From NCBI GenBank assembly GCA_023078555.1, contig CM041200.1, forward strand, positions 8,052,807 through 8,116,806: 64,000 nucleotides of DNA. Reading direction: 5' to 3'. The stretch's first letter is position 1; every line of letters begins with the position of its first letter. This DNA is from Ulva prolifera. Its lineage: Eukaryota; Chlorophyta; Ulvophyceae; Ulvales; Ulvaceae. The translations under genes and the position numbers were made by a program. Under the pieces are notes generated by a model. The model made no database searches, was not told where the DNA came from, and was given only the letters and a program-made list of their open reading frames with translations. Shown here one piece after another: positions 36,621 to 60,413 of the stretch.

Positions 36621-38343
36621 CTACAGCCCGCAGCGGACGGCGCAGTTGGACTCGATGGCAAAGAGAGGGAGGGTGCCGGTGATAATGTCGGTGCGGAACT
36701 TCTGGACGTCAATGGCGGCGAGGCCGGGCACGAGCGCCGCGATGAGGTCAGGCGGGAGGTTCACAAAGTTAGTGGAGAGGCGCACAAAGTTGGGGTCAGG
36801 CGTGCTGAAGGCGCCGATTGCGGTGACCGTGCTGCACGAGGGGTTCTGTATGAAGCCTGAGACCCCTGCATGCATCATCACAGAACTGTGAGATTACAGA
36901 GTCGCCCCGCTCGTCGATCTTTCCCCCATGGCGATGTTTTCTCAGGGGGGGGGGGGGGTGATGCAGGCTTGGTCAAGGAGATGTACACAGCGGCTGCATA
37001 TGCATGTGCATGGGGTGGCGGATGCCAAGCGGTGCCATGCGGGCGATTCTGTGGGGTTGCACTGATCAGTCCGTATGTGCCGCCGGTATTACTACCGGAC
37101 ACCCCCTTTGGAACCTCGTATGCACGATTGTTCTTGCAAGCTGAATCGTCACCGCAAGCACTGGCATTCAAGAGGCATGCATATCGGCATTGTCCCCGGC
37201 ATGTGGTCTGAGCAGCACACAACACAACTGCGCGCCCGTCCGCACCTGTTGGGATGAAGAACGATGTCAGCGGCGCCAGCGTGCGGTTCCGGATGAGCGT
37301 CCCGATCTCGTTCACAAAGCCGACGTCCAGCGAACCTGTCAGGGGCGTCACGATCTGGGACGCCGACGGCTGAGAGTTGGGGTTCACAAAGCCGCAGGGG
37401 TTGAGGTTGTAGATGAACTGCGACGGCGCGGAGGGCGCGGCACCGAGGACGCGGTTTCGATCGATGTCAACGATTGCAAGAGTTCCGCCGGGGCCGACGC
37501 TGGGGGTCTGTGGTGACAGCGTGAAGTCCTGTGGTTGGAAGGCGGCGCGGAGGAAGATGCTTGTCGCGAAGTCCTTGTCCGGGACTCCCTCGAGGCCGCC
37601 GAAGCCTGCACGGTAGGGGTGCACATGGTCGGTCCTGCGGCCGTGGGGGGGGGGGGGGGGGGGGGAAGGCTCGTACAGGGCTGCGGGAGCCAGATGGTGG
37701 GTTGCGATTTCTATGGGATTGCTGCGGCACACGTTGACCTGTAAATTGGAGGGTCGCTGTGTTATTATGTTTGTTGGTGGAGGGCGTCAAAGCGGGGGGA
37801 GCTGGTGTCGCCACATCGCCGGGAATGTGGGCTGTTAGCACATCCGGGTTCGAGCCCTGTTTTCCTCCCAGATGGCTGGTGTGGGTTTGCAAGAGACTAC
37901 ATAGTCAGTCACCACCCTACGCAATGCCAACGCCGTATGCTGCTTCAGCTCAAGACAAAACGCCGAGCCACCCATGTTGCTCTCAGCGAGCGAGCCCCAC
38001 TTCCTTGATCGTATCAGGCACGCTATGCTCCCTGGACGCTACCGAGCCCACTCTCAACGGTGCCTGGCAGGACAGCTGGACACCATGGTATGTTGCGATT
38101 CCAGGGTCTGCTGATATCTTGTTACCGATGTGTTGTGGTTTTGACGGTGTTCCACCATATCATGGCCCGAGCTGTTGTATATCGGGGCATCGTATGTAGC
38201 AATTCCGGGGCAGGGGGCGGCAAGGGGGGCGCACCGGCCTGGGCGGTGACCATGGCCACAGCATATGCAGCCGCCAGCGCAGAGGCGAGCGCGGCGCGAG
38301 CGCAACGGCGGATGGAAGCGGGCCTCGCCTTGCAGTGCTCCAT
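36621..38343 (-). CDS. Secreted four-cysteine protein, family copy A
   Basis: Three exons: 38343-38235, 37605-37246 and 36865-36621 (stop), 237 residues. Exon 1 encodes a signal peptide (MEHCKARPASIRRCARAALA, then a hydrophobic core to VTAQA); an ATG six codons further upstream (38361) is also possible. Exon 2 begins GFGGLEGVPDKDFATSIFLR and contains SVGPGGTLAIVDIDRNRVLG, FIYNLNPCGFV and GFVNEIGTLIRN, ending FFIP. Exon 3 begins VSGFIQNPSCST, contains IGAFSTPDPNF and ends CAVRCGL. One Cys in exon 2 and three in exon 3 are shared by all four copies, suggesting two disulphides. Both introns are in phase 1 with GTGCG donors and TGCAG acceptors. Introns 1 and 2 carry poly-G runs (37645-37665, 36945-36958). 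I recognise no known domain. A TGTAA signal follows at 107 nt and a 38-bp element shared with copy B lies 415 bp upstream of the ATG. Confidence 0.8.
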
Positions 38344-38757
38344 CTGCAGCAGCAACCACAAACTATAAGTACAGAGACGGGGGTTGATTTTTTCACCTCG
38401 ACCTCGACGCGAGACTCGTGCCGAGTTCAGAGCCCCCGAGCTGGAAACAACATTCTTCCTCGAGGTCCCCGGCCTCGGCTCTGCGCAATCCCCCGCAGCA
38501 GTGCGCCCGCATCGGCATCGCTATGTTGCCTGCCCACAGCTGCCTCTGTGGTTCTGGTGTGCATGCATGCATGTGATCAGCCCGCCCCTCGGGATGCGGT
38601 TGCTGTTAATGGCATGGCAGGACAACCAACTAAGCTCCACGGCAGACCCTGCGTCCGTGTTCCCGTGGACTGGGGAGATCGGCGTCGGCCCATGCATGCT
38701 GGCGTGTTGTCGGGTGGCACTGGAGTGCACTGGGCCATCACGGCCGAGCACGGCGGA

Positions 38758-38795
38758 TTTCAGTGTTTGTTTTCTCCCGTTCACTCTTTTGTAAA
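38758..38795 (-). promoter_or_regulatory. 38-bp element shared upstream of family copies A and B
   Basis: This 38-bp stretch is identical to 50866-50903. It lies 415 bp upstream of the copy A ATG; the other lies 410 bp upstream of the copy B ATG, in the same orientation. The sequence around each is not alike. A diverged copy at about 57343 on the plus strand is not near a start, so it could be a dispersed repeat instead of a promoter or 5' UTR element. Confidence 0.4.
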
Positions 38796-38963
38796 ATATA
38801 GCACGGCGGATTGACATCCCTGGCTGCATGCATCAGCTGCATTTGGCAGTGCTGCGGCCGTGCCATAGCTATGCCCCAAACAACATCTCGATGCCTAGAT
38901 CTGTCGACACGCTCGCACATGCGTGTCTGTGCACATGTTGCAAGCCTGCAGATCTGTATCGAT

Positions 38964-38964
<1 letters not shown>

Positions 38965-39025
<61 letters not shown>
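38965..39025. repeat. (CA)n microsatellite
   Basis: An uninterrupted run of about 30 CA units over 61 bp, upstream of family copy A. The long His/Thr or Cys/Val frames read across it are artefacts. Confidence 0.98.
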
Positions 39026-39027
<2 letters not shown>

Positions 39028-40079
39028 GCGCTGAAGATGCTATCACAATGCGCTGTCTAGGCTGCTCGCGCGGTGCGGTCAGCCTGTTGCTGCATGCTGC
39101 ATGCTGAGCTCCAGACGACTCGTCTTCCGGGTTGCCGCGCATCGCGTCAGCTGCCCGAAGTCAATGCGCATTCCCTGTCTCAGTCATATCATAGCATTTA
39201 ACATGTCGAAATGTATTCATTTCTCCCGATGTGCAGCATCTGGCGCAGACGATGTCGACATGCTTGCTCATGCGTGTGTCGACAAGGCCCCGCTGGCCGG
39301 ATGGCCGTGGCTCTGACATGCCACGAGACATGCCGTCAATGCGCACTGCAGATCAAGGACCTTGATGTGTATGAGTTACTGCGAAAAACTGTGCAATTCA
39401 ATCCAATGCAGGGGCGCCTGCACTGTTACAAAATGCTGGTACAAAACACTCGTGACACTTCACGCACTGCTGTCATTTGGCGAAGATGTGCGAGTGTGCC
39501 CACACTGCTGTTGAAACAATTTGGACGTCAGGCTGGCGTCAATGGGTACAACTCGTTCTTGTAGTGTGCATTACGGGCCCAGGCGCGAGCTCCAGCCCAC
39601 TCTCCACTGCACCTTACATGAATACCCGGGCTACATACGCCGAAGGCAAGTCACAACCTCATATTGAATGACAGTGTGGCTCAATTACGAGTGACAGCAA
39701 CGCATAATACGAATTCCCGCGCGCTTTCAATATTAGCCGGTATCAATCAGACGCCGGGCTGTTTCAAAGTGCCACGCACCCCAACGTATAATATAATCAA
39801 CCAATTCCCCAGGAGCAGTCGGAGTTTGATGTATCGGGCAGGTGTGGACTGCTCTCCCACGACAGGGCACCCGCTGCACTCAGATCAAACTGTCACGGGC
39901 AATCGCTGGGGAAGCCACGAGTCGATGGACCCGAATCAGCACACCCGCGACTGTATCACGGGTGCAGCCGTCCACCCGAGACAAGTCACGGGTGCCGGTC
40001 GTTCTTGTAGTGAGCGAGCTCCCGAAAGTCTGCTTGCGTGAGCGTTAAAGCGTACGCGGAAGACGCGGCGGCCGGATAT
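39026..40079. other. Intergenic, nothing recognised
   Basis: Only short frames are present. A TATA-rich stretch (GGATATATGTATATATATAC) lies at about 40074-40093, next to the putative start of the small gene that follows. Confidence 0.4.
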
Positions 40080-40882
40080 ATGTATATATATACACCTTGG
40101 CCAAGCCTGGAGACAGCGACGACTGCTCGGCCGTTAGCCGGGCCTTTTCGACGCACGGGGCCGTTGTCCTTCGAAAACGCGCGGTTCAAGGCGCAGGCGC
40201 TCGCGGTAGCCGTCGCGCAGGGGATCCTGGAGCTGCACAACAGGCGAGCGCCGCTGGTGAGTGTTGCAACTGGCGTTGCAACTTGAACCACATGTTGCAG
40301 CCATGTGACACTGGAGTTGCCTTTGCACTTGCACAGCGTTAAGGAGCCACATAGGTGATATATATCACAGCTCTCGCATGCAGTGGCTGTGGTGGTGTGC
40401 TTGCTGGCAAAAGATTGGAGAGAATTCGAGGCATGGGTCTTTCATGGAAGAAAGAGGTTCGACCAACGATGTTGGCGTTTGAGGTGCACAGGCGCGCACC
40501 TTACTGAAGCTTGGAGGCTCGATTAAACTGATTGATTGGACAAAGTATCCGGGAATTATCTCTCTTCACGTCTTGCACATGAATCATGTGGCATGATATT
40601 TCTGGAGATAGATGTCAGTCGATGCGATGGTCGCTCGAGGCGGCAGGGGCGCTCGCTTCGCGTGTGGATTGGCGTAAAGTAAATGGGAAGAATTCTCACC
40701 AATGCATGCACCGGCGCATGCCTTACGCCAGCATGCATCATCACATTCGCACAGCTGCAAGCCGAGCCCGCAGGGCGAAACGGGCGTTGCGCGCGTTGAT
40801 CAATGCAGCGGCAAAGGCCTGGCCTAGGCCCGGTGTTCAGCTGTACACAGGCGTGGGGTCAGAAGCCGCACGCCGCCGCTGA
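40080..40882 (+). CDS. Putative small basic protein, two exons
   Basis: A first exon 40080-40256 (ATG at 40080) encodes RPLAGPFRRTGPLSFENARF and KAQALAVAVAQGILELHNRR and ends at a good donor (CTG before GTGAGT). A second exon from 40619 (after GTCAG) to the stop at 40882 joins in phase and ends in a very basic tail (SRARRAKRALRALINAAAKA). Together they would give about 146 residues. No domain is recognised, and the ATG sits inside a TATA-like run, which weakens the start. The exon 1 segment looks coding because its helix-like pattern is better than in the other frames, but there is no paralogue to compare. Confidence 0.28.
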
Positions 40883-41984
40883 CGGCATGCCGGGTCACGT
40901 GCACCTTTGCTGTTACAGAACCGTTGCCGACATGTCATGCGACATCGATCAGGCCGCCCGGATATCCGTGCATATGCAGGGCTAGCTTCGACACGTCGCA
41001 ATCGGTTAACCGTTGACGGAATCCGAAACTTTTCTTTAAACACTACTCTGTGTGTGGTCTGCATGCTTGTGCGATGTGGCGACTTCGACGCTGACATGTT
41101 TGCGGGGAACAAGCACGCTTAAGCAATTGCGTACTAGGTACCGACCCCCCCCCAATCAGTGGGACAGAGCTACGCGTCCTCATCACGCGCTGTGACGGCC
41201 CATGAGATGCCGCATACGTCATCTATCAACATTCTGAGGACAGTATTGCGAGTCGATTGTCGCGTGACGGTGTAGCTGTTACCTGCTTGTGTGCAGTGCG
41301 CTCGTGGCGTGCGTGGTGGCGCACGACCTCTACCAAGCCACAGGCCACCCAGAAACTACATCATATGCTGTAGACATTCAAAAGACTGTTCTGCTACGCC
41401 ATTCGCGGTGTATGGTGCTCTGGTGAGCCTGCGAAAGGGGTGATTACCTCATGCGGATTGTAACGTCGTGAGGTGCAAGTAAATCGGACATGGCCAATTC
41501 TGGGAGGACCTGGTAGCGTAAGCATATCTGGGACTCTACTTAAATACCTCCTGAATCGTTTCGCCTCGGATGCGCGCTTCTTGACACGTTGCAAAGCCCA
41601 AATGTCCAGCAGTAGCTGATCCGTACCGGCTAATCACCGCCTCCTAGTGCCTGGCCTGTCTGCCGCTTTGCCATTGGGCGGGGCAAAGGCAAATACTTAA
41701 GTATTATCACCCGTGTGGTGTCCGGTCGTGGCCATTTGGCAGCGTAGGCTTTGGTCCTATGGGGAGTGGGCAGGACGCTGTGCACCGGCTTCAAATTCTG
41801 CTCTGGGTGCGACATGCTTACTTAATTGGATATAATTCAGTGTGTCGGGACTTTCCATGCCTGCTGGGGCACGGAAGTCGTTTGCAGTGGTCCACAACTT
41901 CGTAATTGAGTTGCTACTCACTATCAACTTGCACTGCGGCCTCTACACATGGCGCGCCGGGCCACTGGGCTCCCAAATTAGAGC
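40883..41984. other. Intergenic; an unpaired transposon-like end
   Basis: No gene is seen. TACTAGGTACCGACCCCC at about 41131-41150 resembles the outer end of the AGGGGGTC-type elements described below, but no partner end or target duplication was found for it. Confidence 0.35.
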
Positions 41985-42839
41985 TTAATTAGTGCTCACT
42001 TCGTGAAGCTGGCAGTCTTGGTCTGACTGATTGCCCGTATCCTCTGGCTCCTCAAGAGGGTGTTGTTCAAGTGCTGCACATGCCATGGCCGTGCCCAGGT
42101 CTTTATAGTACACAACACGCTCCATCTTGTACCTGGCGACCAGCTTGTAATATTTCGGGAGATGGTAATTCCTCCAGCCCGCGCGTTTGCCTCTCTTCCA
42201 CAGCTTGCTGCAGCGCCCCTCTGGTGATAGGTGGGGTCTGGACCACTGCAACATACGAGTGGTCCTAGGCTCAAATCATATGAATCAGTTGCAGCTGGAT
42301 GTGGGCAATGCTGCTGCAAACACAGCACGAAAACACAATGATACATCGTGCCTAGAGTCAGTAGGCACAAAGCACGTTGAGCCCAGCTGAAGCTACGCTG
42401 TAAAACCTTGACTCAAACAGCTTGTCATCTCTTCTGTCATACACTGCAAGTCCAAGTGGGCTTACCTGGTGGTGGAGTGGGTGGCTGTGCTGCCTTTGCC
42501 TTCTTTGCTGCGACACCACGCGCCCCGAAAGTCTTCAGCTGCTGCTTCCGTGCGCGCTTTGTCATTCCATCAGCTGACTCAGGTAGACATTCCAAACCTT
42601 GTTGTAAGTAGTATCAAAATTTACTGTCGGAAGAGGTGTCCCGCCAGCCCCGAGGGACGCGCGTACGTTGCAGCACACGACTCACTGCAGCAGTCGCGAA
42701 GCGCAGCTTGCGTAATTTCCACCGCCAAACCGTGGTTATATCCGAGGTACATATTAAGGGTTTTATTTTCCAGTAGAGTGTGCGCTGATGCGGGTTACAG
42801 GCGCAATTTCGTGGGCCTGCGATGGCAGGCCATCTACCG
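41985..42839 (-). CDS. Lys/Arg-rich protein of unknown function, 3' four exons
   Basis: Four exons join in phase: 42839-42686, 42577-42466, 42245-42133 and 42050-41985 (stop). Donors are GTGAGT, GTAAGC and GTACAA, and the acceptor between exons 2 and 3 is TTGCAG. The pieces read RTLYWKIKPLICTSDITTVW and KLRKLRFATAA, then SADGMTKRARKQQLKTFGAR with GVAAKKAKAAQPPTPPP, then TPPITRGALQQAVEERQTRG and LEELPSPEILQAGRQ, then EPEDTGNQSDQDCQLHEVST. The middle is basic, as in a nuclear or nucleic-acid-binding protein, and the end is acidic. I do not recognise the family. The start is not found; upstream exons may lie beyond the transposon at 43312-44883, which would then sit in an intron. The agreement of three consecutive phases is the main evidence. 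Confidence 0.45.
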
Positions 42840-43230
42840 CTGCACGAATTCGAATCGGCAGCCCACATTTCGCGATTCGGCTCGCAATACTATCTCAGAT
42901 ATGGTATTGTCAGGTGTGTAGTGCCGTTTAATCGGCGATATCGCGGGGCACTTGGGTGCTCGACTCTGTCCCACCAGAACACCGTAATCTCGAGGGGGTC
43001 AGTACCTAGTATTGCGTGCCTACAGCAAGGCCATGAGCACGATCGATCGCGACTCTGCCGCACTCTCACGTAGCTACGCGTAGATGCTCATTTCCCAGCA
43101 GACGTGAAATTCACTGCAGTGCACTCCAAGCCACAACCCACATGCATGGTAGTCCGGGGGGGGGGGTGCGGGGGGGTATTTCTGTGTGTGTTCCCTGACA
43201 CATTGCATGCGTTGTTCGTGCTCTCCCTTT

Positions 43231-43287
43231 TGGTCCTGGCGGTGCTACCGGCCCCTCCGGCTTTTTCCTTTGTAACACATTGCATGC
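43231..43287 (+). repeat. Short interspersed repeat, tandem copy next to a transposon
   Basis: The stretch GGTGCTACCGGCCCCTCCGG followed by CTTTTTCCTTTGTAACACAT is one copy of a short motif seen about ten times in the window. Its nearest sister copy, at about 44904-44945, lies just beyond the transposon inserted at 43312. Without the insertion the two copies would be tandem at about 97 bp. A partial third copy lies at 43189-43208. Confidence 0.6.
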
Positions 43288-43311
43288 TTGGTGGCTTTGG
43301 TCGCCTTGCGC

Positions 43312-44883
43312 AGGGGGGTCGGCACTAAGGCCTCATGCACGTCCAATTGAACCGCGAGCACCTCAGAGCGCTCCAGAACACAAGGAAAAGTCCTTCGGAC
43401 TCGCAATAACCTTCTGAATCGATTGTAAGTAGTGTGGGCGAAACAGGTGAAAACGCCCAGCGAAACCGGGGTTTTTGGACCATAAAGCCCGTTTTGCCCA
43501 GCGACGCCTCAGATGGCCTCAAACGGTGCCCAGCGTATGCCCATCGTGCTCAGTGGGCAGAGAGCACTCGAAAAACACCATAATATGTTGCCCTGATGTT
43601 TAACTGGCTGCCACCTCGACTTGTATCACCGTGCGGTGTTCGCGTCCGACCAGCATCATGGCGGGCGTCCATACTACCGGGAAACATCCCATCGATTACC
43701 ATGATTTCGACTAGCTTACCGGACCATTGGCACATATGCAGCTGTCTTGTGTGGTGATCAAAGAGCAGGCCGGTGGGCGACGTGATCCTTGCTGAGATGC
43801 TCAAAACATCGCAGCAGCTACAATGTTGTGAACTTCATCTTAAGATAGCATTGTTGTGAGACTACCCAAACTTTGATGCCTGCACATACGATACTGAGTG
43901 AACCTCCGGGTCAGTCAGTGTAGCTTGCTACACTGCATAGCAGTGCACCTTTGCACCTTAAGATCGAAGGGACAGCAGCACCACCGACCAGATATGTTCT
44001 TCAAAAGCGATCAGTATACAAATTTGAAATGTACATGCCTATCATCAGCATGGTCTGCAAGCAAACACCATCCTACAAAATGGAAGGCTTGCGTAGGCAC
44101 GTCATTGTTCGCCTGAATCCACACCATCATGCAGTAGATCCACGCACAGTGTTACCAGAGACAGTCTGCCATGGTCCTTAACAGTCTGCCATGGTCCTAA
44201 ACATGCCTGATCTGTTGACGAAGGCGATACACTGATTTCCAGTGGTACAGAGTCACACATGTATGCAACCAGGTCGTCACACATACGCTGAAAGGAAGGA
44301 CAAATATCACACATGCTATCAGGATATGGCAATCTGATGTGCTGCAGAACCTGTGCTTGGCTCTGTTGTGATCAACTGTTGACAACGCCGAGTGCTATGG
44401 AGTACAAATTGCAGCAGCCAAGCTGCCCCCCAGCCAGATCGGGCAAGCAACAGTCTCGCCAGACCCGGAAAGCCATCTCAACTATCTCCGGTAATTATTC
44501 TGTGCGTAACAGCTCCTATCGACGCGGTCGATTGTGTCCAAGGGAAGCAAACATGGCAGAGCATGTACTAGTACCGCCCGCAGCAACACAATAGACCATT
44601 TATAACGCATTTACAGGCATATAAGGGTGTTCTGAGGCCATTGGGCATGCTTCCGGTCCCGCTGGGCGCGTTCACGCGCTTGCTGGGCACAATGGGGCTT
44701 TTTGCCCAGCCATGCACACGGATTTCGGGCCAAAGGTCCATTTCGCCCAGCGAGTTTAAACAAAGATACAGCAGCATTCAGAAGGTTATTGTGAGTCTAT
44801 AGACGTTCCCAGCGATGTATCGAGCGTTCTGAGCTGCTCGCGGTTCAATTGGACGTGCATGAGGCCTGAGTGCCGACCCCCCT
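43312..44883. mobile_element. Non-autonomous DNA transposon, AGGGGGTC family, copy 2
   Basis: This 1,572-bp element starts AGGGGGGTCGGCACT and ends with its exact complement. The terminal inverted repeats match over the first 63 bp with about three differences (43312-43374 against 44821-44883), and weaker matching continues inward for some 250 bp with repeated GCCCAGCG. It is flanked by a perfect 8-bp target duplication, CCTTGCGC, at 43304-43311 and 44884-44891. The interior has only short frames and no transposase. The ends and the 8-bp duplication are shared with the element at 48907. Superfamilies making 8-bp duplications include hAT, P, Merlin and KDZ/Zisupton; the termini do not decide among them. 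Confidence 0.85.
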
Positions 44884-45853: not shown

Positions 45854-48800
45854 CTAGATGCCGCAGCGGGTGGCGCAGGCGGGGTCGATCGGGAAGGAGG
45901 GCAGCACGCGCGTGAGGACGTCCGTGCGCAGCTGCTGCACGTCCACGGGCGTGAAGTTCGGCAGCACGGTGGTCACGAGGTTGAGGGGCTGGTTGATGAT
46001 GGAGGTGATGAGGACGGAGAAGTTCGGGTCGGGGGTGCTGAAGACGCCGATCGCGGTGACGGGGGTGCATGCGGGGTTCGAAATGAAGCCGGTCACGCCT
46101 ACATGCATGTGCTATGTTACATGTGAAATGCCACGGCCGGCATGCATTGCAGGCAGCGAGGGCCCTGGCGGAGGGCATGCCGCCATAAGCATTTTATACT
46201 CAAGTGTGGTGCAGATGAGCGAGCAGTTTGCAGCAGACGACCACAGCACACGAACTTCTCACAATAGTTTTCAAGCTCATACATGACATCGGAGCCCGCC
46301 GCCGCGAGGGGTCGCACCCTGCGGGATGAAGAAGGACGTCAGCGTCTTCAGCGTCTCGTTGCGGATTAGCGTGCCGAGCTCGTTCACAAAGCCAACGTCG
46401 AGGTCGCCGACGAGGGGCGTCACAATCTGAGACGACGCCGGCTGCGTGTTGGGGCTCATGAAGCCGCAGGGGTTGAAGTTGTAGATGAACTGCGACGGCG
46501 CGGAGGGCGCGGTGCCGAGGACGCGGTTCGAGTCGATGTCGACGACCTGCAGGGTTCCGCCGGGGCCGACGGCCGGCGAGCGTGGGACGAGCGTGTAGTC
46601 GCGCGGCCGGAAGGCGGTCCGGAGGAAGAATCCAGTTGTGAAGTCCTTGTCCGGGATGCCCTCCAGGTTGCCGAAATCTGCATGCAGCGGTCACGCGCAT
46701 TTCCTCCTGTCTCACCGACTGCTCATCGCTGTCACAGTTCAGCCATATCGAGTCGCAGCTGCTTGATGCAGGCACGTTGTCGGAGCCAGGGGTTCGGGGA
46801 GAGGGGGCTGCAAACTCAGATACGCTAGTCTCAGTCACACATGGGCCCTCATCCGCACTGGCGCTGCTACTGACCTCTCTGGCTTTGTCCTTGTTGCACC
46901 ACGGGTCGTTGCAATGCATGGCTGGGTACAATGCATGGTTGGGTGCAATGCATACACACACATCACGCACGACACAGCGCCGCCGTGGCCCAGCAGGCAC
47001 GTATCACGGGGTGGTTCGTGGATTGATTGGGGGCCTTCCGCGTAGGGTGGGGTCCGCGGATGTGCGGCGGCCGCGTCTGTGGCTGCCTCAGGGGAGGCCG
47101 TGCTGGTGTACATGTGGGGTTATGCGCATATGCATCTGTCAAAAGGACAAGGCGGCCAGCACTGCGTGAACAGGGAGCACTGCAAGGCACCGAACACTCG
47201 CCCAACACAATGCCCCAAGTGAGGGGTTGCATGCATGTACATGTGTTACAAAGGCAAAGCCAGAGAGGCATCTGATACCCTTATATATATTCGCTTCGCG
47301 TCTGTGCATCTGCGTCCAGAGACCCCGCGACGCAGGTCGCCTCGCGTTCGCGTCGTTCCTCTGCAGCGGTATCGGGCGCCGAAGTTGCGCTGCACCTCTG
47401 GCCACGCGCCTTTCAGCGGCGCTCCGCCACGGACGCGGCCGCTTCTCGTCCGACCGAGGCATCACATATTCTAATTAAATTATACGCATCATGTTTAGTG
47501 CATCAGAAACGATTCGCATCGAGCTTCGAGCATGACGCATCGCGCAGCAGAGCGCTGCACCTCTGGCCACGCTGGCTGCAGCGCTCCGCCACGGACGCGA
47601 CCGCTTCGGAGCCAGCCGAGGCGTCACAGCATTTATCTGTAGCGTTTGCATTGTTTTCAGAGTGTCAGGCATCGCTTGCGTCGGCTTCAAGCATCACGTT
47701 TTTCAAGCGTCACAGCTTGGCAGGCCCCCCTTCGGGCCCCCTTCGGACCACGTGTACTGGCTATCGAGCTTTTCAGCGGCGCTCCGCCACGGATGCGGGC
47801 GCTTCGAGCCCTGCTGAAATATCACATATTCTGATTGTAACTTATGCATTATATTTACCGCGACAGAAATCAATTGCATTGAGCGTCGAGCACCATGCAT
47901 CGAGCAGCAGAGCGCCGCAGCTGCGCTGCACCTCTGGCCACGTTGGCTGCAGCGCTCCGCCAGCATCGAGCTTCATGCTTCAGCTTCGAGTATCAAAGCG
48001 CAAGAGCCCCCCGAAGGGGGGCTCGGCTGCTCCATTCCGGCCTCGCCTCCGCGTCGGGGCCTCGGCGTCGGCTTCGCATCTGTGCATATGCTTCCAGAAA
48101 CCCCGCGACGCAGGTCGCCTCGCGTTCGCGTCGTTCCTCTGCAGCGGTATCGGGCGCCGAAGTTGCGCTGCACCTCTGGCCACGCGCCTTTCAGCGGCGC
48201 TCCGCCACGGACGCGGCCGCTTCTGGTTCAGCCGAGGCATCACGTATTCTAATTAAATTATATACTTCATATCTAATGTATCAGAAACGATTCGCATCGA
48301 GCTTCGAGCATGACGCATCGCGCAGCAGAGCGCTGCACCTCTGGCCACGCTGGCTGCAGCGCTCCGCCACGGATGCGACCGCTTCGGAGCCAGCCGAGGC
48401 ATCACATAGCTTATGTGTAGCATTTGCATCGTTCTCAGCGTGTCAGGCATCGCTTGCGTCGGCTTCAGGCGTCAATCTTCTCAAGCGTCGAGGACCGACA
48501 GGCCCCCTTCGGGCCCCCCTTCGGGCGACGTGTACTGGCTGTCTACATTTTCATGCGGCGCTCCGCCACGGACGCGGCCGCTTCGAGCACTGCCGAAGCA
48601 TCACATATTCTGAACATAACTTATGCATCATATTTACAGCAACAGAAATCGCTTGCATCGAGCGTCGAGCACCGTGCATCGAGCAGCAGAGCGCCGCAGC
48701 TGCGATGCACCTCTGGCCACGCTGGCTGCAGCGCTCCGCTTCAGCATCGAGCTTCATGCTTCAGCTTCGAGTATCAAAGCGTAAGAGCCCCCCGAAGGGG

Positions 48801-50456
48801 GGCTTGTCGCTTGTATATATATGTCGTTATCTCGCGGGCATAGACTCTATCGGATATGTGCTACGCACAGCCGCGAATGCACCCAACCGATAGGGAGGGC
48901 AGGAGGAGGGGGTCATCCACTCCCGCTAAAGGGTGGTCCCCCCCCGGGCGCGCAAAATCCGCTGCGAAACAGCCAAATTGGGGAAGGTTTCCACCATTGT
49001 TTAGGTAGTTTGGGAACTCGTAGTGTTCGATCTCAGTCTTGGGAAAAGTCCCCAAGGTTCGTACCCTTTTCGGCACAAATCAGCCATTCTCCCCAATATC
49101 GACAGAACGAAGAGATAACGTCCCCAATCACTCGCCTTTGCTTCCAGAACACGAACCACGTCATAAATAAGCTATAATATGTTGCTATCTTTGTGGTTGG
49201 TGTATTTCCGTTGTATGCGGGTGACCCGACACAGTGTGTACAGTACGTAGTGTCGTTCGGCTGCCAATCAACTTGCTGGAGACGGCAAGCAAGCGTCGAT
49301 CGATGGTGTTTTTGTTATATGTTAAGCAGTGTCGTGGATCAATGAGACAACGCCGATTACGTGCGTCGACGGCTGTATGGCACGTTTGCACGCACAGTTC
49401 TTTCGTAACGCGACTCAACCACGTGCTCATCGCATACCAAAACACGACCATCACATCAGCAGTCGGAACAAGCATTCTGCGCTGTTTGACAGCGTCCTCG
49501 CGAGAAGTAGCCCACATCGGAGGATGTCAGGCACTCATTCACCACGACAGACTCGCCACCTCACTAAACACATCGACCACACTACGCCACTTACACCAGG
49601 ATTTGGACTTGCATCCTGTATGTGGGCCCGTTAGAGCCTCGACCGTTGTTCAGCTCTGCAACTGCATTGGCTTGCACACTACACCATCACAAATGCTCCG
49701 AACGGCCGTGACTTGGTTCCAGTCGATGTCCAGGCAACAAAACGAGTTTATATGCTCTCGTGATTTTTCTTATGTTGTCAAGCAGGGTCCATTTGGTGCA
49801 CCTCCGGGTCACCGTCTGCTGCCCTGTCAGAGACACAGGAACGATTCGAGAGCGCTGAAACTGCAGATGCCAAGACACGTAAAATGGTGTGAACATTTGC
49901 GAATCGACACAGTCAAAGCTACTCGCTTTGTCTCACTTGTGCACTGTTACCCCTGCGTGCCGTCTCAAAGTGCACGAATCAGCTGCCTCCCATTTGACAA
50001 ATTCGATGCAGCGCGGCCGTCTAGGGGCAACATAACACAATAGCAAAGGTTGTAGAAGAAGTTTGGGAAAGATTGGGAAAGGAGCTGAGACACTGGGCAA
50101 CATTGGGGAGCCGAGGACGGCAAATCGAGTTTCTCCCCAACCAGACCGGCTATTTCGGCGATTGTGACCCATTTTGCCCAAGACTCCGAACTAAAACACT
50201 ACGATTGTTCATTCAACTTAGACAATAGTGGAAACCTTCCCCAATTTCTCTGTTTCGCAGCGAATTTTGCGCGCCCGGGGGGGGACCACCCTTTAGCGGG
50301 AGTGGATGACCCCCTGCAGGAGGGGGGGAGGGGCGCACCTGTCGGCTGGGCGGTGACCGAGGTGACGGCAAGTGTGGCCACAAGTGTGACCAAGATCGTG
50401 TCACGCATGGAGCGGCCTGGTTTGCGACGGGGCTTCCTTGATTTGAGGGGTGCCAT
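45854..50456 (-). CDS. Secreted four-cysteine protein, family copy B (intron 1 invaded)
   Basis: Three exons: 50456-50339, 46677-46318 and 46098-45854 (stop), 240 residues. Exon 1 starts MAPLKSRKPRRKPGRSMRDT and continues with a hydrophobic core to SVTAQPT, a signal peptide; the same MAP start is seen in copy C. Exon 2 gives DFGNLEGIPDKDFTTGFFLR, AVGPGGTLQVVDIDSNRVLG, FIYNFNPCGFMSPNTQPASS and GFVNELGTLIRNETL. Exon 3 gives VTGFISNPACTPVTAIGVFS, TPDPNFS and the end CATRCGI. All splice phases equal those of the paralogues. Intron 1 is 3.66 kb, against 0.2 to 0.6 kb in the other copies, because it contains a 1,409-bp transposon and a 1.5-kb tandem repeat. Whether the intron is still spliced correctly cannot be told. 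An alternative is that exon 1 at 50.4 kb belonged to another, now lost, copy; the phase match argues for one gene. Confidence 0.74.
47290..48812. repeat. Higher-order tandem repeat, two units of about 778 bp
   Basis: Positions 47312-48089 and 48090 to about 48812 are two similar units with a period of 778 bp. Each contains about four sub-repeats carrying GCGCTCCGCCACGGACGCGG (about 47423, 47580, 47772 and 47951 in unit 1; 48199, 48357, 48555 and 48735 in unit 2) and GCAGAGCGC...CACCTCTGGCCACG. TATA-rich stretches flank both sides (47281-47291, 48813-48822). Long frames run through on both strands because the repeat is high in GC and lacks stops; they look like by-products. The array lies wholly inside intron 1 of family copy B. 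Confidence 0.85.
48907..50315. mobile_element. Non-autonomous DNA transposon, AGGGGGTC family, copy 1
   Basis: This 1,409-bp element starts AGGGGGTCATCCACTCCCGC and ends with the exact complement of that sequence. The terminal inverted repeats match over about 95 bp with five or so differences (48907-49001 against 50221-50315) and more loosely to about 150 bp. A perfect 8-bp target duplication, GCAGGAGG, flanks it at 48899-48906 and 50316-50323. The interior has an open frame on the plus strand from an ATG at 49303 to 50043 (246 codons) without a recognised domain; it shows no transposase motifs. The insertion lies 15 bp downstream of the exon 1 donor of family copy B, in its first intron. 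Confidence 0.9.
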
Positions 50457-50865: not shown

Positions 50866-50903
50866 GGTTTCAGTGTTTGTTTTCTCCCGTTCACTCTTTT
50901 GTA
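50866..50903 (-). promoter_or_regulatory. 38-bp element shared upstream of family copies A and B
   Basis: Identical to 38758-38795 and placed 410 bp upstream of the copy B ATG in the same orientation. A regulatory or 5' UTR role is inferred only from this matched position. Confidence 0.4.
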
Positions 50904-53900
50904 AATGAACAATTGCCGAGAACGCTACAGCAGCCATGGTGTCTACTGAAGCAATGGAGGCCGCATCGATGGCCGTTCCAGGCAGCAAATGCTCCTGGAC
51001 CAAGTGGAAAGCGTCACGCAAAACCTTCATCTCGGAGTCTGCGACGCGAATGCAGTGCCGGTGCAGCGCGCAAGCTCTGCACAGATGGCTGTGTCGGCGA
51101 CAGCTGATATCTCAAGTTTGCGGCAGTGCACACCTCGACGCCGGCTTGCGGTGACACGGGCCACGTTCGTCGACCGCCACGAGGCTCCGGATGGCGCCCG
51201 CCAGTGTCAACCCGCCGCCGGAGCTGGAAAGTGCCGAGCCGAACGGCTTCGAATTCACAATACGAAGCTTGTGCTGGAGCTTGAGCACGTGAGCTAACCT
51301 CGAGCCTGCAGGGCAGCGGGCACGATATCGATGCACATGTAACCACATATAGGCCTGTTCCGGAGCTTCCTACGCAGATCTAGATCGAGTCGTGGTGAAT
51401 GCGGTCGCTGTGCGTTGATAACGGGTCCTCTTGTCGAGCATCTGCTGGAGCTGTATACATGTGTCGTTACCGGTAGACACGACGAGCTGTTGTGCCTACC
51501 GGTAAGAAACGCCGACGAGTTGTCGAACACGCGGAGCCGTCGCACAGGAAATCTGTGACGCCCTTTGTTCCAACGCGCAGAAATGTTGCAGGACCATTAC
51601 CTGCGCTGACCAGAGCCCTGCAATACGCGAGTCGCCTGTAGATCTGCAACGTTGTCAGCGGTTATCAGCCTGTCTTGTCACTCTTGTCCTAGCAGCCCGT
51701 GGTCCGAATGTTTACGGAAGCGTGCAGTATCTCCAGCGAGCACTCTCCAGCGCTGCTCGTTGGATTCAGATCTCAAGTTATGCCCCGAGACGAATGCTGT
51801 GCGTATCTCTGCGCGGAGTGAATGGGTCAACGGTCTCGGGAATGTCTGCAGCTTTGGATCTTAGTATGCGGTACCGACCAAATGTTTTTTATGGTTCAAC
51901 AAGTTGCAATTGCGCGTGACAAGGCGGCGTGCGCATGCTGCATCGCGATGTGCTCGAGCGGACGCGTCGTTCCAGTGTCCGAAGGGAACTTTGAGTGTGG
52001 AGGCCGGCGCCTCGAGGCCGCGCGGGCGCGTTGATCGACGCGCGATGGCGCACTTTGCATCTCTGAGATGAAAAGCGCGTAATTTACCGCACACGACTGC
52101 GGCGTTGCTGTATATCAAGAGATGGAGATGCAATTGTGCCGGTTCAGTGGTCGAGTCCATGCCGTCGTTGCTCCACATTCCGCTGGCTCGAACTCTATGA
52201 ACCAGTAGTCCTCTTGTATGCTGTTCACGGCGCCACCTGTTCTGATGTGTAATCGGTCATGTTCTGGTAAGTCGATGACTCGATGAAGCCTTCATCCCAG
52301 CGACAGCCCTGCCTTCCGCGCGCAACGTTGAATATGCTGCTAAGTGCGCCAAACCAGACAGGTCGGTTCTCTCAAAAGACCGATGACTGAATTTGTTGGA
52401 GTACTATGCTGATTATTGTATCTTTCGACTTCGATTTATCCCATCGTATGATTGTTGACTGTCGACGACGTCTGCTACAGCATGCAAGGGCCCCGTGGCA
52501 CTGCCATTGCGGCGTGTCGCGGCAATTGTGAACATACGAAGCTGTACCGCATATTGCTCACGCTTCGGCAGGAGACTGGTCAACGATTATCAGAGGTTCT
52601 AGGGAAGGCGATGTGACAAAGAGCTATCGCTCGTGCAAACAGCAGGCACTAGTACGGTGCGCACAGAGCGCCCGGATAGGCTGTCTCGTTGTCCACAAGC
52701 AGAACAAGTCACCGATGTGTGCTGATATCAAGATGTTGCTTCGGCCTCACGCATTTCATTGCTGAAGTGCAGCTACGAGCATCCCTGACACGTAGCCCAC
52801 GAAGTAGATGTCTGCAGCTCGAACAGATGTGCAGTCTATAGGAGAGATCATACAGTTATCGATCGTCGCTGAAGCGCTGGAAGGGTGCAGTGGATGTACG
52901 GCTCGGTGTGAGCAGTGCACAAATGCACATATGCAGGACATTCCCAAACCGGTTGCATGCTGGCCTGGCACATGGACACTTTGCACTAAGACTGTACCAA
53001 GTGGAACATCGAGCTATTTTGGAGTGACGATAGGCTCGACCAGGACCAAATTGTCGCAAGTAAAGCCCTGGAAGTTGCTCAATCACCATCGACAGGCATG
53101 AATATGCTGTTCCACTGCGTCCACGGCATCACGTCACCCATCACATGCTACCAACACACAGCTAGCAGCTCTGCATCAGCACAGGCACTCGGTGCAGCAA
53201 TGCGTCTACAGGCAGGCACGTTTGCTCTCCACAGTGCCATGCAGTCAGCTTGACACCGGTCGGCTTCAGCAGCTCAATGCGTCTTGGCGAATACGAAGCT
53301 TTGCGGGCTGTTGGGCCGTCAATGTTACACAGATGAAGGCAGTGGCGTCAGACGCAACGAAGTGCTTTGATGCTACTTCACAGCTGGCAGATATCTCACA
53401 CTGTCTGCAATCCGTTCGACTTCAATCCCTTCCCATGCGGCTGCATCGTGCTCACTTTCGACCTCCTCGCCCTCCTGAACAAACACGCTCACCGCGCCGC
53501 AGAAGCCCCCACAGCATGCACACCTCCCGATATCAGATGCTAGCTGCCCGACCACCGGCAACATGTTGCCTGCAGCAGCTGCCTCTAGAGGCCTCTAGAG
53601 CGCTGTCAATGCCACCAACGCACGCCATTCCTTTCTTCGCGGTACGCGAAACGCGCCGTGATGCCATACAAAGACGGCTTGTCTGCCGCACACACGGACC
53701 GCTCTGTGGCATCGCAGGTGCCAGTCTCGTGGGGCATGTACATCGGGCTGCGGTGCTCTTCGCGTCCCCTGCTCTGTGTCTGTAAAACAGACCGCTCGGC
53801 ATCTGAACACCATGCCCACACACCCACCCCCCACCCTCACGCCACCCCCCTTGCACGCCAGGGTCAGCCTCGGCGCCGATAGTGGGCATAGAGCATACTG

Positions 53901-53937
53901 GTGTGTGGGGTAGTGGTACCGCAGTGGCAATCGCCCC
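50904..53937. other. Intergenic, no gene recognised; one palindrome
   Basis: Frames are short and show no supported splice chain. A 39-bp palindrome lies at 51467-51505, with perfect 10-bp arms TTACCGGTAG and CTACCGGTAA around a partly self-complementary centre. A short duplication (CCTCTAGAGG) lies near 53583-53600. Confidence 0.4.
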
Positions 53938-55424
53938 TCACACCACCAGGCCGCATGCCGCGGCACACTCCGGGTCGATCTGCAGCAGCGGCCGGTCTCC
54001 CGCGGCGATGTCGGCGCGCAGGCCCAGCACGTCCTCCGCGGACAGCATCGGCAGCATCGCCCGCACGACCGGGACCGGCAGGTTGACGAGCGAGGTGAGC
54101 AGGGGGGCGGGGTTCGGGTCGGGGGTGCTGAAGATTGCGATCGCGAAGGCCTCCTCCGTGCATGATGGGTTCGCGATAAAGCTCGCCAGCCCTGCATGTA
54201 CATGAATTCACCCCCGCGATGCCTGGCACGTCGAGACGCTAAGAGAGACAGGCTTTTACTGCCTGATCATGGCTGCCATGCGTAGCGTGATCCCGCACCG
54301 GTATGTGGTCCTGGACGAATATGTGGAAGAACACATGCATGTGTATACCTGAGTGCTGGGTGTCCTGACAGTGGGGTTTGTGGTGCCAGCCAGCATCCTG
54401 AACGTGCTGTGTGTGGGTTGGTGGTGGGAGCAGCACGCGTCAGCTTATCGCCACAGGGCCCTCCAGCGGAGCACCGTATGCCGACTTGAGCAGCACCTCG
54501 GGTTTGCAATCAGGCGGTGATGCGAAAACGACATGCCAGGCATGTTCGAACACACAGTACAGCGCAACAGCTACAGTAGCTTGCAAGGCGCATCAGCAAC
54601 GGCCTCATCGGCCCTCTCTAGCGGCTCCTCGAGGCTCCATGGACATCCTATAGTTATGTTGACACTATAAACGAATCCATGCATTCATTTTGGAAGATGT
54701 AGACGAGCCGGCACCTTGCGGGATGAGGAAGGAACGCGACATCTCCAGCTCGCGGTTGCGCACAAGCCCCCCGAGCTCGTCCACAAACCCGATGTCCAGG
54801 GGCGCGTTGAGCGGCGTCACTGTCTGCGACGACGCGGGCTGCACGCCCGGCGACACGAAGCCGCACGGCTGCAGGGCATAGAAGAACTGCGATGTCGCGG
54901 AGGCTGTGGCACCGAGGACGCGGTTCGAGTCGACGTCGACGACGGTCAAAGTGCCGCCGGGGCCGACGTCTGGGCGGCGGTCCATTAGGGTGTAGTCGGC
55001 GGGCCGGAAGGCGGCGCGGAGGAAGATGCTGGTCGTGAAGTCCTTGTCCGGGACACCCTGGAGGCCGCCGAAGCCTGCACGCGGTGCTGAGCGGCGCTGC
55101 TGAGTATGTTATGTGGTGGGCGTGTGCAGGGGAGTGTCGACGCGGCCCCGTGGACATGCATATGTGAAGATGTCGTGCTACGGGGAAGTGTATGACATGT
55201 CAGCGCTATCGGGTCTGCTTCGCAGGGCTGCTGTAGCCTCAGGGTTCTGGGGGCAGGTGCGGGGAGGGGTCAAGGCCCTTGTCACAAGGGGGAGGAGCGT
55301 TACCTGCCGGAGGCTGCCCGGACACCATCGCCACGGCGTGTGCAGCCGTCAGCGCCGCCGTGAGTGCGGCGCGCATGCTGCGGCCGCCGGTGCTCCGAGC
55401 CGCCTTGCGGTTAGGGGGTGCCAT
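53938..55424 (-). CDS. Secreted four-cysteine protein, family copy C
   Basis: Three exons: 55424-55304, 55074-54715 and 54191-53938 (stop), 244 residues. Exon 1 starts MAPPNRKAARSTGGRSMRAA, continues with an Ala-rich hydrophobic core (ALTAAHAVAMVSG) and ends at a GTAACG donor. Exon 2 gives GFGGLQGVPDKDFTTSIFLR, DVGPGGTLTVVDVDSNRVLG, ALQPCGFVSPG and GFVDELGGLVRNRELEMSRS. Exon 3 gives LASFIANPSCTEEAFAIAIF, STPDPNPAPLLTSL and ends CAAACGLVV, two residues longer than copies A and B. All intron phases are 1. Intron 1 is only 229 bp, the shortest in the family. No known domain is recognised. Confidence 0.8.
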
Positions 55425-57577
55425 CTGCGGAAGCGGACGAGAGGTGTCAGGCTGTCGCAGGTGGGCGGGCATGCATGTAGCAGGCGCAGGGATGGACAGG
55501 GCCTGGTGGCGTGAATCTTCAGGGCCAGGGAACACCGGTCAGGCCGGCTGGGATCCTGTCAGGCCAGGCCTGGTGTGCATGCGTGCGTGCACGCAGGCCA
55601 CAGCAAGGCACGGACGGTCGCCCACATGTTGCAACCTTGCAATTGTTAACCTTAGGATTTGCTCGCGCATATATCTGTGTGAGCAGGGCCGTGCCCACCC
55701 GGACAGCCTTTTGGATGTACGTCCAAGCTGCCGTCTCAAGAGGAGGTCCCTGGGGAGTCGTGGCTACTGGTACACACCTGGTCCATCTTGGGCGGCTTGC
55801 CTTGGGTGTGCCGGCTTCGTGCCGACCGAGGCTGTGCAGACTGGAGGCTGCTGTGACTGCCGGTGACCGACCTAACGCGATTGTGTTTGCGCCTGGATGT
55901 CGACGTGGAACCGGTAGGAGCTGTGAGGAGGTGTGCACAGCGTTAGCGCAGCCGTAGCTAAGCCTTGAAAGGGTCTTACTTCGCGATGGCGAGCCTCGGA
56001 CCTGCACGAGACGGTCCCTTTAAGCTTGGAGTCAACGACCCCTGCTCGAAGCATGTGCAGGTGTGTCTCTTGTAGTGCATATGCAGGCTTCTTCGAATTC
56101 GGCGGCGTTAGCTACCACTGGCAGGTCGGCCAAGACCAACACCGGATTATCAGCTGGAGGCTAGTCGCTATTCAATGAGTCCTGCGTGCAAGGATAATGC
56201 TTGTGCCACCTGGGAGCGCTGCTCCGCCGTGGCGGAGGTGCGCCTGCAGGGCCAGCTGCCAGTTGGCTAGCCAAGCGCTTGGCCGCTTTTCGATTCACCC
56301 GAACTTCGAAGCGATCGCAACATCGTTGTCACGCTGCTATATGCACCGGTAAAGGTGTGCTGGTCTGTGCACAGGTGTGTTGCGTGCCACGCAGTGCTGT
56401 GGTGGCTGTGTGGGTGTGTTTGTGCCCCGCGGTGCTGCTTTCCTCTCTAGAGACTTTTGTAACGAAAACCTGCCTCTCTGTCTTTGCAAACATGTCTTCA
56501 AGGACAGATGTCATCCACCGCTGTATGCAACAATATATGCATCGCGAGGGGTGCCCATCACGACAGGTGTCCCTGGCCAGGCCCGGGCCGCCTGCGTTGC
56601 CATTGGCGGGCGTGCACAGCATGCTGCAGGCATATGCATGCCGCCCCGGCGGGGGCGACGTGTACAGCCGCTGCGCGCCGAACGGCCATTCAATTGCAAG
56701 TTGCAAGCGGTATTGATTTCAACCGATTGCGCTCGCACTCGCGTTCCGGCCTAGGCTGCATGCATACATATGTCGGCAGGTGTGAGCAGACCTGATAACA
56801 GTAATGAAAAAATATCCGTCGGGGTGCTTGTCCCGCGGCGTCCGCGATAGTCGTCGTGCCGAATGTTGCACCGGCCGCTGCAGTTGTCTCAGGGACCCGG
56901 GCTCGTATGCTGTGTTCACTTGAGCTTGTTCAGTATCTGGTAACAGTTCTCGACAATGAAGGTAACAGGCTGGGCTTGTGCAACCGTAGACAGGTGTAGC
57001 TGTTAATTATAACAATTAATTGTGTACCTCGAGATACGCCGCGGCCCGGGGTCAGTGTCGGCGCTGGCTGTGGGCTCTTTGAGCGCCATGCATGGCCATG
57101 GAGAAAGTTCCCGATCCCCCTCAGCATGAACTTCGACGGAGCAAGGACGATTCACGGTTTGAACTGCCGGCGCCGGCGCGCGCCGCCATTGGCGGAGCGT
57201 GCACAGCGGCGTGCGCTGCATCGTCAGCACGAAAGACCGGGGGGAAAACGCAGCTGGCGTGCCGGCCGGTTTGTTACAAGGACAAAGGCAGCAAGGCGTG
57301 CCGGCCGGTGTGTGGCTTCCGTGGGTGTTACAGCGCGGAAGTTTACAGAAGAGTGAACGTTCGAACGGGCACAGACAAACACAGCAACAGAAGTTGTGGC
57401 GTAAGGACAACTCGGCGATCTCGAGGCAGCTTGCACCACAGGCAACGATATATCACTATACAGCTCAAGCATACCACCCAAGCCCAAATTCGCCGCGAAG
57501 CCCATGGTGCGCACAGGCATGCGCTGACCCAAATCATCCGGCATATTCCCAGCGCTGATCTGGAGCCACCAAGTGAT

Positions 57578-57610
<33 letters not shown>

Positions 57611-58626
57611 ACCAAAATTTCATCTGCACCCTACGGACACACCCCTATCCCACCTCGCCGCATGAGCGGCCGCAGGGGCGTCCACACTCGCGGCCAAGAT
57701 CATCGCCACCCGGGTGGCGAGCCCACACAAATTGTCAATTGTCAACGCATGTGTCGGGCCCCACACCCCCGCTACCCTCCCCCGTACTCCAACACAGAGG
57801 TCCGCAGTTTGAACCCCGCTCCAGCATGCGGTGGCCCGACCGCACAGCACCGCCTGTGTGTTCTTTGCGCTAGCGCAGCTGCTTGCCGGCTTCACCGTGC
57901 TGCTGGCTCCGCCTCCTTCATCGCTTTGAGACTGCACCGCCCGCCGCACATCTGCCGAGGCGCGGTCACCGCAGGGCCCATCGCCCCTGAACGAAGCCGG
58001 CCCCCGCAGCACAGCATAGCGGCCCCAGCGCGGATCATGAGGGGCCACGCTGCGCGCTGTGAGGTGCTGGCAGCAGACAGTGGCGCAGTACATGCACAGT
58101 GCCGCCGCTGAGGCCAGACGGCCAACGATCACTGGCCGGTCATTACCAGTGCATGTATCCACAAGGCCCGTCAGAACTGGTTTACCCGCTTGAGGTGCCA
58201 GCAGCGGAACGGCAGTGCAGACCTGCCATGATCAAGTGCTCGGCAGAGTTACCGCGAGAGCGCGTGCATTGCATTCTCGAGGAAGAGTCTTGTGGAGAGA
58301 TACCACTGGTAGAGGCAAGCTCCCAGCCGATCGCGAGCCCAAGTTTCCCCGTCACGCGTCTTGCGCAACAGCGAGACCATGGTCGAGGGCCCCGTACCGT
58401 CGTGCCCACACTGCCTGCGAGCTTTCTGGTCATGATCAGTGGTAGCCGTTGCCTCGGCGCCGCTGCGCATCGTGGCTGTCGGCAGTGGAGCTCCATGTGG
58501 CAGCGCACTGCCGACCGCCGAGGCGGCGTGTGTGCTGCTGGACCACTGTTCAAATCACAGCACATCATGTATCAGCATTGAACATCGCCCCCCCCCCTAG
58601 CCACCCCCACAGCGTGTTCCCTGCCC

Positions 58627-58658
<32 letters not shown>

Positions 58659-58683
58659 CCGCCACGCATGCATGCGCGGCTCC
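55425..58683. other. Intergenic between copies C and D, homopolymer tracts, no gene
   Basis: Poly-C runs lie at 57579-57610 (32 C) and 58629-58655. A plus-strand frame of 339 codons at 57092-58111 passes straight through the first poly-C run and is Pro/Ala/Arg-rich, so I do not take it as a gene. A diverged copy of the 38-bp shared element lies at about 57343, and the interspersed motif (minus) at about 57271-57290. Two short stretches near 56585 and 57178 share GCCATTGGCGG and GTGCACAGC and may be old duplicates of each other. Confidence 0.4.
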
Positions 58684-60413
58684 TCATGCATCCAGGCCGC
58701 AGCGCGCAGCGCAGGCCGGGTCGATGTCAAGGAACGGCATGCCGGTGTCGGGGGGGCCGGCCGGCGCGCTCGCGGCCGTGAGCGCCGGCGCAACGGCGGC
58801 AATGATCTTTGCAGGGAGGGCCATGAATGAGGCGAACGTCTGGGCGGCGCCCGCGTCGGGGGTGCTGAAGGCCCCGATCGCAAAGGAAGACTCGCACGAG
58901 GGATTCGCGATGTAGCTCACCAACCCTGCATTTGCCGCGATGTTGTGTACCGCAGTTCACCATGCAAAGGTGCTTGAAAGTGGAGATAGCTCATGTTTGA
59001 ACAAAAGCCACGACTGCAGCGGAGCCGCGCATGGATCATGACTAACGAACCCCAGAGGGCTGTCCAGAATTCTTAAGATTTCCTATGGCGCCGGCATGCT
59101 GTAGCATATACATCATGTAGGAGTTGCGGCCCTTCCATGCTTGCAACTAGTTGCAACTAGTACTGAAAAGCTACCACATGCTGTGCGGAACCTATGACCG
59201 TCGAGTGACCGCACCCACGTCGATGAATGTGTGCCCAAGAGTGGACGGGTGTGCACAAACGTCAAAGTGTTCCGCATTGTTCACATGCGTGCTGTTTGCG
59301 GCGGCTGGAGTGTTGCATACACACGGACGGCACGCAGCCGCTGCAGAGGCCGGGGCGTGCCTTGCGGGATGAAGAAAGAGCGTGGCTGAGTCAGCGCGAC
59401 GCCCTCGTGTAGCACCCCCACCTCATCCACAAACCCGACCTCCAGCTCCCCCACCAGAGACGTCACCGTCTGCGACGAAGCCGGGTGCACGCTCGGGACT
59501 ACAAAGCCGCAGGGTTGGAAGTTATAGATGACCTGCGCGGCGGCCAAGGGGACGGTGCCGAGGAGCGGCGCTGAGTCAGCGTCAACGACGCGGACGGCGC
59601 CGCCGGGGCCCGAGGGCGGCAGCCGCTCCGCGAGCGTGAAGTCGGCACGCGGGAAGGCGGAGCGGAGGAAGATGCCGGTAGTGAAGTCCTTGTCCGGGAC
59701 GCCGGCGAGGCCGCCGAAATCTGCATGCGTGAGGACAGCAGTGCATTTGTGTTACACGGACACAGGCAATGAGGTCGGCAGCACCACAGAAACGGCGAGC
59801 GGCTGCAGAACACGTCCATCAATTCAGCAAGGCACAATCCCGGCCACAGCCAGGTATGCGCAGCAGCCTAGGCTTGGGCAGATGTACTGCATCCGCTGTG
59901 CAGGTGCGGGTGCTGCTGGAGCAAGGGGCCCGTCAATGGAAGGAACAAGTGCACGTGCCTCAGTGCTGCGGACTTTTGGGAGACATTGCAATCGGCGACA
60001 GGGGATGAAGCGCTGTGAGTGACTGCTCCGGTCGCCGGACTGTTCACCAGGGTTTGGTCGTTGGGTCGGATCACAAAGAACAGTTCCGAATATTCAGGTG
60101 TGATTTCTGGCTGGCAGTCCCGGAAATACTGCGAACCCAACACTGATGTACACACGGAGTCAGCTGTCTTGACCTCGACCCAGGGCACAGAAGGGGGCGC
60201 CGCATGATGCATGATACATGGCCAGCCGTGGCGGCTCAGCCCGCCGCAGTGGCGGCAGCGGCGCAGTGGCTACTGGGGGTTCGCACCAGCGCCGGAAAGG
60301 TTGGCCATGGCGACGGCGGTGTGCGCCGCAGCCAGTGCGGCCAGGAGCATTCGCCGCATGCCGTGGCCGCGGCCGGGGGGCGCGGGGTGTGCCTTGCACT
60401 GGGGGGGAGGCAT
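58684..60413 (-). CDS. Secreted four-cysteine protein, family copy D (GC-AG intron)
   Basis: Three exons: 60413-60287, 59720-59361 and 58925-58684 (stop), 242 residues. Exon 1 begins MPPPQCKAHPAPPGRGHG, then MRRMLLAALAAAHTAVAMAN forms the signal peptide core; starting at that second Met (60359) is possible. Exon 2 gives DFGGLAGVPDKDFTTGIFLR, GPGGAVRVVDADSAPLLGTV, FQPCGFVVPSVHPASSQTVT and GFVDEVGVLHEGV. Exon 3 gives LVSYIANPSCESSFAIGAFS, TPDAG and ends CAARCGLDA. It is the most diverged copy: VVDxDSNRVLG reads VVDADSAPLLG and a Pro/Ala-rich patch replaces the DVQxLRTD stretch. The intron 2 donor is GCACGC, not GT, so it must be a GC-AG intron or the copy is decaying. The four family cysteines are kept. 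Confidence 0.73.

Follow-up and report, generated by a model that had tools for sequence, protein, structure and literature searches.

Germins are described as hexamers with one manganese (Mn) ion per subunit (PMC7550295), bound through ligands given as His88, His90, Glu95, and His137 (PMC3765361). These His, His, Glu, and His residues belong to boxes B and C of germin (PMC7550295), and the germin box itself has been written as GxxxxHxHPxAxEh (PMC3011853). Two N-terminal cysteines joined in a disulfide are also described for the family (PMC7550295). Here, we examined a 64,000-nucleotide (nt) stretch of the Ulva prolifera genome (the window; contig CM041200.1, hereafter C5, positions 8,052,807-8,116,806) for a cluster of four related genes, genes 1–4, lying on the minus strand at 36,621-60,413. 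Their products are most likely germin-like proteins that are secreted, carry no metal, and serve in binding or structure instead of as enzymes, a function that we infer from the predicted sequences.

All four predicted proteins scored above the gathering cut-off of the Pfam family Cupin_1 (PF00190; 22 bits), at 31.8, 31.3, 29.0, and 50.1 bits for genes 1–4, respectively (gene 2 without its exon 1), with one Cupin_1 stretch in each. A profile built from the four genes was then compared against the PDB, where oxalate oxidase 1 entries 2et7, 2ete, and 1fi2 ranked at the top (E values of 2.7e-5 to 4e-5). We take the oxalate oxidase 1 entries (1fi2, 2et1, and 2et7) to come from barley. The fourth match, to the capsid protein of a virus (E 0.032), was taken as chance and discarded as a relative. 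A nine-sequence profile, comprising the four window genes and five paralogs from the same genome, reached germin at 6e-13, and its next matches were 11S globulins, Peruvianin-I, which is presumably a germin-like plant protein, and oxalate decarboxylases. In NCBIfam, scanned for genes 1 and 4, gene 1 matched nothing and gene 4 gave a weak cupin match below cut-off. The window proteins resemble barley germin (oxalate oxidase 1) in having a single Cupin_1 domain and a similar size, with an aligned stretch that starts at the PGG region and takes in the FxIPxG strand. They also show the length of about 220 amino acids, with a signal peptide, that characterizes germins, the signal being judged by hydropathy only. 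They differ from barley germin in their substituted metal ligands and in lacking the N-terminal cysteine pair, their four cysteines lying elsewhere, at about positions 71, 131, 195, and 199. The four genes thus almost certainly encode single-domain germin-like (Cupin_1) proteins, as far as predicted sequences can tell.

This identification overturns part of a first-pass annotation of the window, which had reported no recognisable domain, could not place the proteins in any known family, and had named a clear domain hit in advance as the result that would count against it. The Cupin_1 scores are such a hit, and in the PDB nothing matched the four-gene profile better than germin. A new, unrelated four-cysteine family would sit well with the weak similarity to characterized proteins, and with scans of viral contigs and of prokaryote genome contigs, in which the four-gene alignment found no relative. 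With Cupin_1 above cut-off in every copy and germin leading the PDB matches, however, it is barely credible, and we rejected it. The cluster does not open a new protein class; the fold family is already well known, and the new point is the substitution of the metal site.

To compare the metal site, we aligned the four window genes with the five paralogs. The alignment was free of gaps from the PCG anchor to the first three ligand columns, and again from the PxG of the F-x-I/V-P-x-G strand to the fourth. In these columns, genes 1 and 2 read N-Q-Q-G, gene 3 reads G-Q-Q-S, and gene 4 reads S-H-Q-S, whereas all five paralogs, including two sister genes elsewhere on C5, read H-H-E-H. The same four residues were intact in 23 of 23 modelled loci of a second, more distant type of paralog (see below), three of the five aligned paralogs among them. 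No window gene carries the germin box: NSQP, NTQP, or GVQP replaces HxHP in genes 1–3, and the corresponding region of gene 4 reads GFVVPSVHPASSQ. The former Glu is Gln in all four copies, inside a conserved P-x-x-S-Q patch, and in the printed PDB alignments the germin ligand stretches likewise fall on substituted window residues. These alignments indicate that the classical germin metal site has very probably been lost from all four genes. The proteins might still be metalloenzymes, holding metal in an altered site through Asn, Gln, Ser, cysteine, or the His of gene 4. Such a site would be compatible with the retained fold-defining blocks and cysteines, with the second His kept in gene 4, and with the diverse activities described for metal-dependent cupins (PMC3765361). 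Every copy has lost at least three of the four ligands, however, and the replacements vary from copy to copy (N, G, or S at the first position and G or S at the fourth), unlike a conserved new site, so that we consider this quite unlikely.

We then examined the cluster relative to the other cupins of this genome (88.9 Mb in 44 contigs). The assembly carries small-subunit Rubisco genes and many chlorophyll a/b-binding genes, one of the latter with PDB matches to LHCII-type chlorophyll a/b proteins, in support of the green lineage; a search of it for large-subunit Rubisco gave nothing. A search with PF00190 marked at least 29 places: gene 4, one other cupin on contig C1, two genes on C5, and 25 places of the second type, divided between contigs C6 (16), C2 (4), C4 (2), C9 (2), and C8 (1). 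The two C5 genes, at 7.18 and 7.87 Mb, scored 55.9 and 56.7 bits for Cupin_1. All 11 matches of a search with gene 1 fell within the four window genes and these two, while a search with gene 4 also reached the second type, weakly; hhalign comparison of the four-gene profile with a distant intact second-type paralog gave a probability of 95.4 and E 1.7e-8. Over the domain, 23 of the 25 second-type places could be modelled. The two left out were L014, which has an in-frame stop, and L027, in which PCG reads PCS; the first three ligands are visible in both translations.

The intact paralogs, namely the C5 pair and the C6 cluster, share Cupin_1 and the four cysteines with the window genes, and the C5 pair also has intron 2 at the same position, after I-P-Q-G. 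The four cysteines occupy the same columns in all nine aligned sequences and are found in 22 of the 23 second-type models, the remaining model, L011, having two and ending early at a stop. As they are common to the sister genes and to nearly all of the distant paralogs, these cysteines are no mark of a new family. A tree of 18 rows (the four window genes, the two C5 genes, 11 of the 23 second-type models, and one germin segment) united the window genes in one group (support 94/95), with the C5 pair as their sister (81/84). By its predicted proteins, the cluster forms a divergent germin-like branch within a family that is large in this genome, and the simplest reading is that the metal site was mostly or wholly lost once, with duplication following. 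Metal-less chains could alternatively serve as regulatory or decoy subunits, joining intact germin-like paralogs and tuning their activity. Intact paralogs are indeed present in the same genome and germins are described as hexameric (PMC7550295), but the aligned intact paralogs are only 24–33% identical to gene 1, which makes this arrangement unlikely.

Several further features of these paralogs were observed. The 16 places on C6 (C6:3,331,904-3,438,877, among L005–L028) are near-identical intact germin-like genes lying on both strands, and some have identical domain models, such as L024 and L025, or L015 and L016, indicating very recent duplication. Two paralogs with an in-frame stop, L014 (C8:1,080,321-1,080,960) and L011 (C6:3,364,464-3,365,300), may be pseudogenes. 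The C1 gene, L033 (C1:7,841,705-7,841,860), is a different cupin that does not have the PCG anchor but has an intact His-x-His.

Other parts of the first-pass annotation fared better. Reading of the minus strand and scripted fixing of exon ends bore out four co-oriented genes at 36,621-60,413. The proposed three-exon architecture stood as regards the middle exon, which is exactly 360 nt in all four genes, and the phase 1 introns with open reading frames; it needed amendment for gene 2, where the putative exon 1 lies not next to the gene body but 3.66 kb upstream. Six of the seven conserved blocks listed (PDKDFxTxxFLRxAF, PCGF, GFVxExG, NPxC, FSTPD, and CxxxCG) occur in every copy, while GPGGxxxVVDxDS holds in three, gene 1 reading IVDIDR. 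The idea of a tandem four-cysteine family expanded in this genome is upheld by the tree grouping and by the cysteines of the mature part, fixed in all four copies. The first exons are signal-like, as had been suggested, with basic residues ahead of a hydrophobic core (hydropathy averaging 1.75–2.5 over 12 residues), and an extracellular role is probable.

Conservation among the copies is concentrated in the exons. In the middle exon, 54 of 119 columns are invariant. When the gene spans were compared by blastn (E 1e-3), exon 2 was matched in all six pairs and parts of exon 3 in four of the six, with matches extending at most about 10 nt into the introns; the first exons gave no match at the DNA level. 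The ratio of nonsynonymous to synonymous substitution rates (dN/dS, Nei-Gojobori) for the middle exons ranged from 0.34 to 0.62 across the six pairs. Decaying germin-like pseudogenes would account for the lost active-site residues and for a dN/dS as high as 0.62. Yet the modelled exons are open and the splice sites usable in all four genes, exons 2 and 3 are conserved against diverged introns, dN/dS is below 1 in every pair, and the cysteines are fixed, so decay is very unlikely and was rejected. The gene models look real, and the conserved fold blocks, the cysteines, and the Ser-Gln pair at the former Glu together suggest constraint for binding, structure, or assembly.

We favor, with a probability of roughly 0.8, an explanation in which these are duplicated germin-like proteins that lost the metal site and have an extracellular binding or structural role. 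The four genes would descend by duplication from an ancestor whose germin metal site had already been lost, wholly or for the most part. Their products would enter the secretory path through the N-terminal hydrophobic segment and would fold as a germin-type β barrel held by two disulfides. Their classical site would hold no Mn, and they would therefore not be oxalate oxidase- or superoxide dismutase-type enzymes. Outside the cell, their role would be binding or structural, played singly or in mixed oligomers that include metal-bearing paralogs; sugar binding or a role as a wall protein would be among the possibilities for a metal-less barrel. Taken by itself, the binding or structural role is a tentative assignment, to which we give somewhat less than an even chance.

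Several points weigh against this explanation. The genes are modelled from sequence, and secretion is predicted from hydropathy. One His, at the second ligand position, is retained in gene 4. The dN/dS values come from a simple method applied to 119 codons, are moderately high (relaxed) in some pairs, and may be affected by bias at third codon positions. The tree took in 11 of the 23 second-type models; in it, the window group falls narrowly short of the star threshold of the tree tool, and the sister relationship has modest support. The germin row is short and on a long branch, the root is unsure, and gene 2 is unusual in its letter composition. A single AlphaFold prediction, made for the middle exon by itself, had a mean predicted local distance difference test score (pLDDT) of 37 and is unreliable.

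Seed storage cupins, which presumably lost their metal ligands, offer a possible parallel. They are described as catalytically inactive, with two cupin domains per chain (PMC3765361), unlike the window proteins, which are algal and have one; 11S globulins (prunin and glycinin) were nevertheless matched by the nine-sequence profile. We see an even chance that the metal site was lost once, before duplications that were constrained by a new extracellular role of a non-enzymatic kind; the inactive storage cupins would then have an algal counterpart that arose independently of seed plants. Germin-like proteins are described in the predicted secretome of another chlorophyte, Trebouxia sp. ‘A48’ (PMC12712428), a likeness of description and not of sequence. 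Among the open-literature matches listed, the titles and abstract openings held no report of metal-less germin-like algal proteins; the main text of PMC11126685 uses ‘germin’ and ‘cupin’ 0 times, and PMC6287815 concerns ABP1, a different cupin. The claim of an unknown family is thus replaced by a sharper, testable one: ligand-less and ligand-keeping germin-like paralogs in one algal genome. These form a clean pair for testing the role of the cupin metal site and the capacities of a metal-less germin barrel, and if a single loss with constrained duplication is true, the intact sister genes are a built-in comparison. What remains of interest is that a conserved tandem cluster has lost its metal site in concert while the same genome also contains intact relatives.

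The exon models are listed in the table. Genes 1, 3, and 4 have predicted lengths of 237, 244, and 242 amino acids, and gene 2 has a body of 200 amino acids plus its assigned exon.

Table. Exon models of the four germin-like genes in the window (positions are those of the window)
Feature	Position	Strand	Description
Gene 1	38,343-36,621	-	whole span, three exons
Gene 1 exon 1	38235..38343	-	signal-like peptide; donor GTGCG, phase 1
Gene 1 exon 2	37246..37605	-	360 nt; first part of cupin domain; ligand positions N, Q, Q
Gene 1 exon 3	36621..36865	-	remainder of cupin domain; fourth ligand position G; CxxxCG end
Gene 2 body	46,677-45,854	-	exons 2 and 3
Gene 2 exon 1	50339..50456	-	signal-like peptide; putative, by likeness to gene 3
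Gene 2 exon 2	46318..46677	-	360 nt; ligand positions N, Q, Q
Gene 2 exon 3	45854..46098	-	fourth ligand position G
Gene 3	55,424-53,938	-	whole span, three exons
Gene 3 exon 1	55304..55424	-	signal-like peptide
Gene 3 exon 2	54715..55074	-	360 nt; ligand positions G, Q, Q
Gene 3 exon 3	53938..54191	-	fourth ligand position S
Gene 4	60,413-58,684	-	whole span, three exons
Gene 4 exon 1	60287..60413	-	signal-like peptide
Gene 4 exon 2	59361..59720	-	360 nt; ligand positions S, H, Q; GC donor after
Gene 4 exon 3	58684..58925	-	fourth ligand position S

The first exon of gene 2 was sought among 586 candidate ATG-to-donor exons on the minus strand of the window, each scored against exon 1 of gene 3. 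The candidate at 50,456-50,339 scored 64, the first exons of genes 1 and 4 scored 59.5 and 58, and the best candidate from outside the family scored 27. Intron 1 of gene 2 would accordingly be 3,661 nt long. At 59,360 (minus strand), the donor of intron 2 in gene 4 is GC, where the other three genes have GT. A CAG acceptor-like site stands 0, 7, 0, and 13 nt before the ATG of genes 1, 2, 3, and 4 (at 38,343, 50,456, 55,424, and 60,413, respectively). With such a site just before the ATG in every gene, a further 5′ intron, or an additional first exon, is likely in all four.

Elsewhere in the window, ten long open reading frames (ORFs), taken from 191 listed of at least 100 amino acids (for example 18,186-19,565 and 21,001-22,662), had no Pfam match at E 0.001 and may be chance ORFs in GC-rich DNA. 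Repeats were also observed within and beside the cluster. Intron 1 of gene 2 (46,678-50,338) holds a long direct repeat with a spacing of ~780 nt and 95% likeness, together with 121-nt inverted arms at 48,907-49,027 and 50,195-50,315, and is perhaps the site of an inserted element. At 43,312-44,883, a pair of 62-nt inverted repeats, 95% complementary and 1,448 nt apart, resembles a small transposable element.

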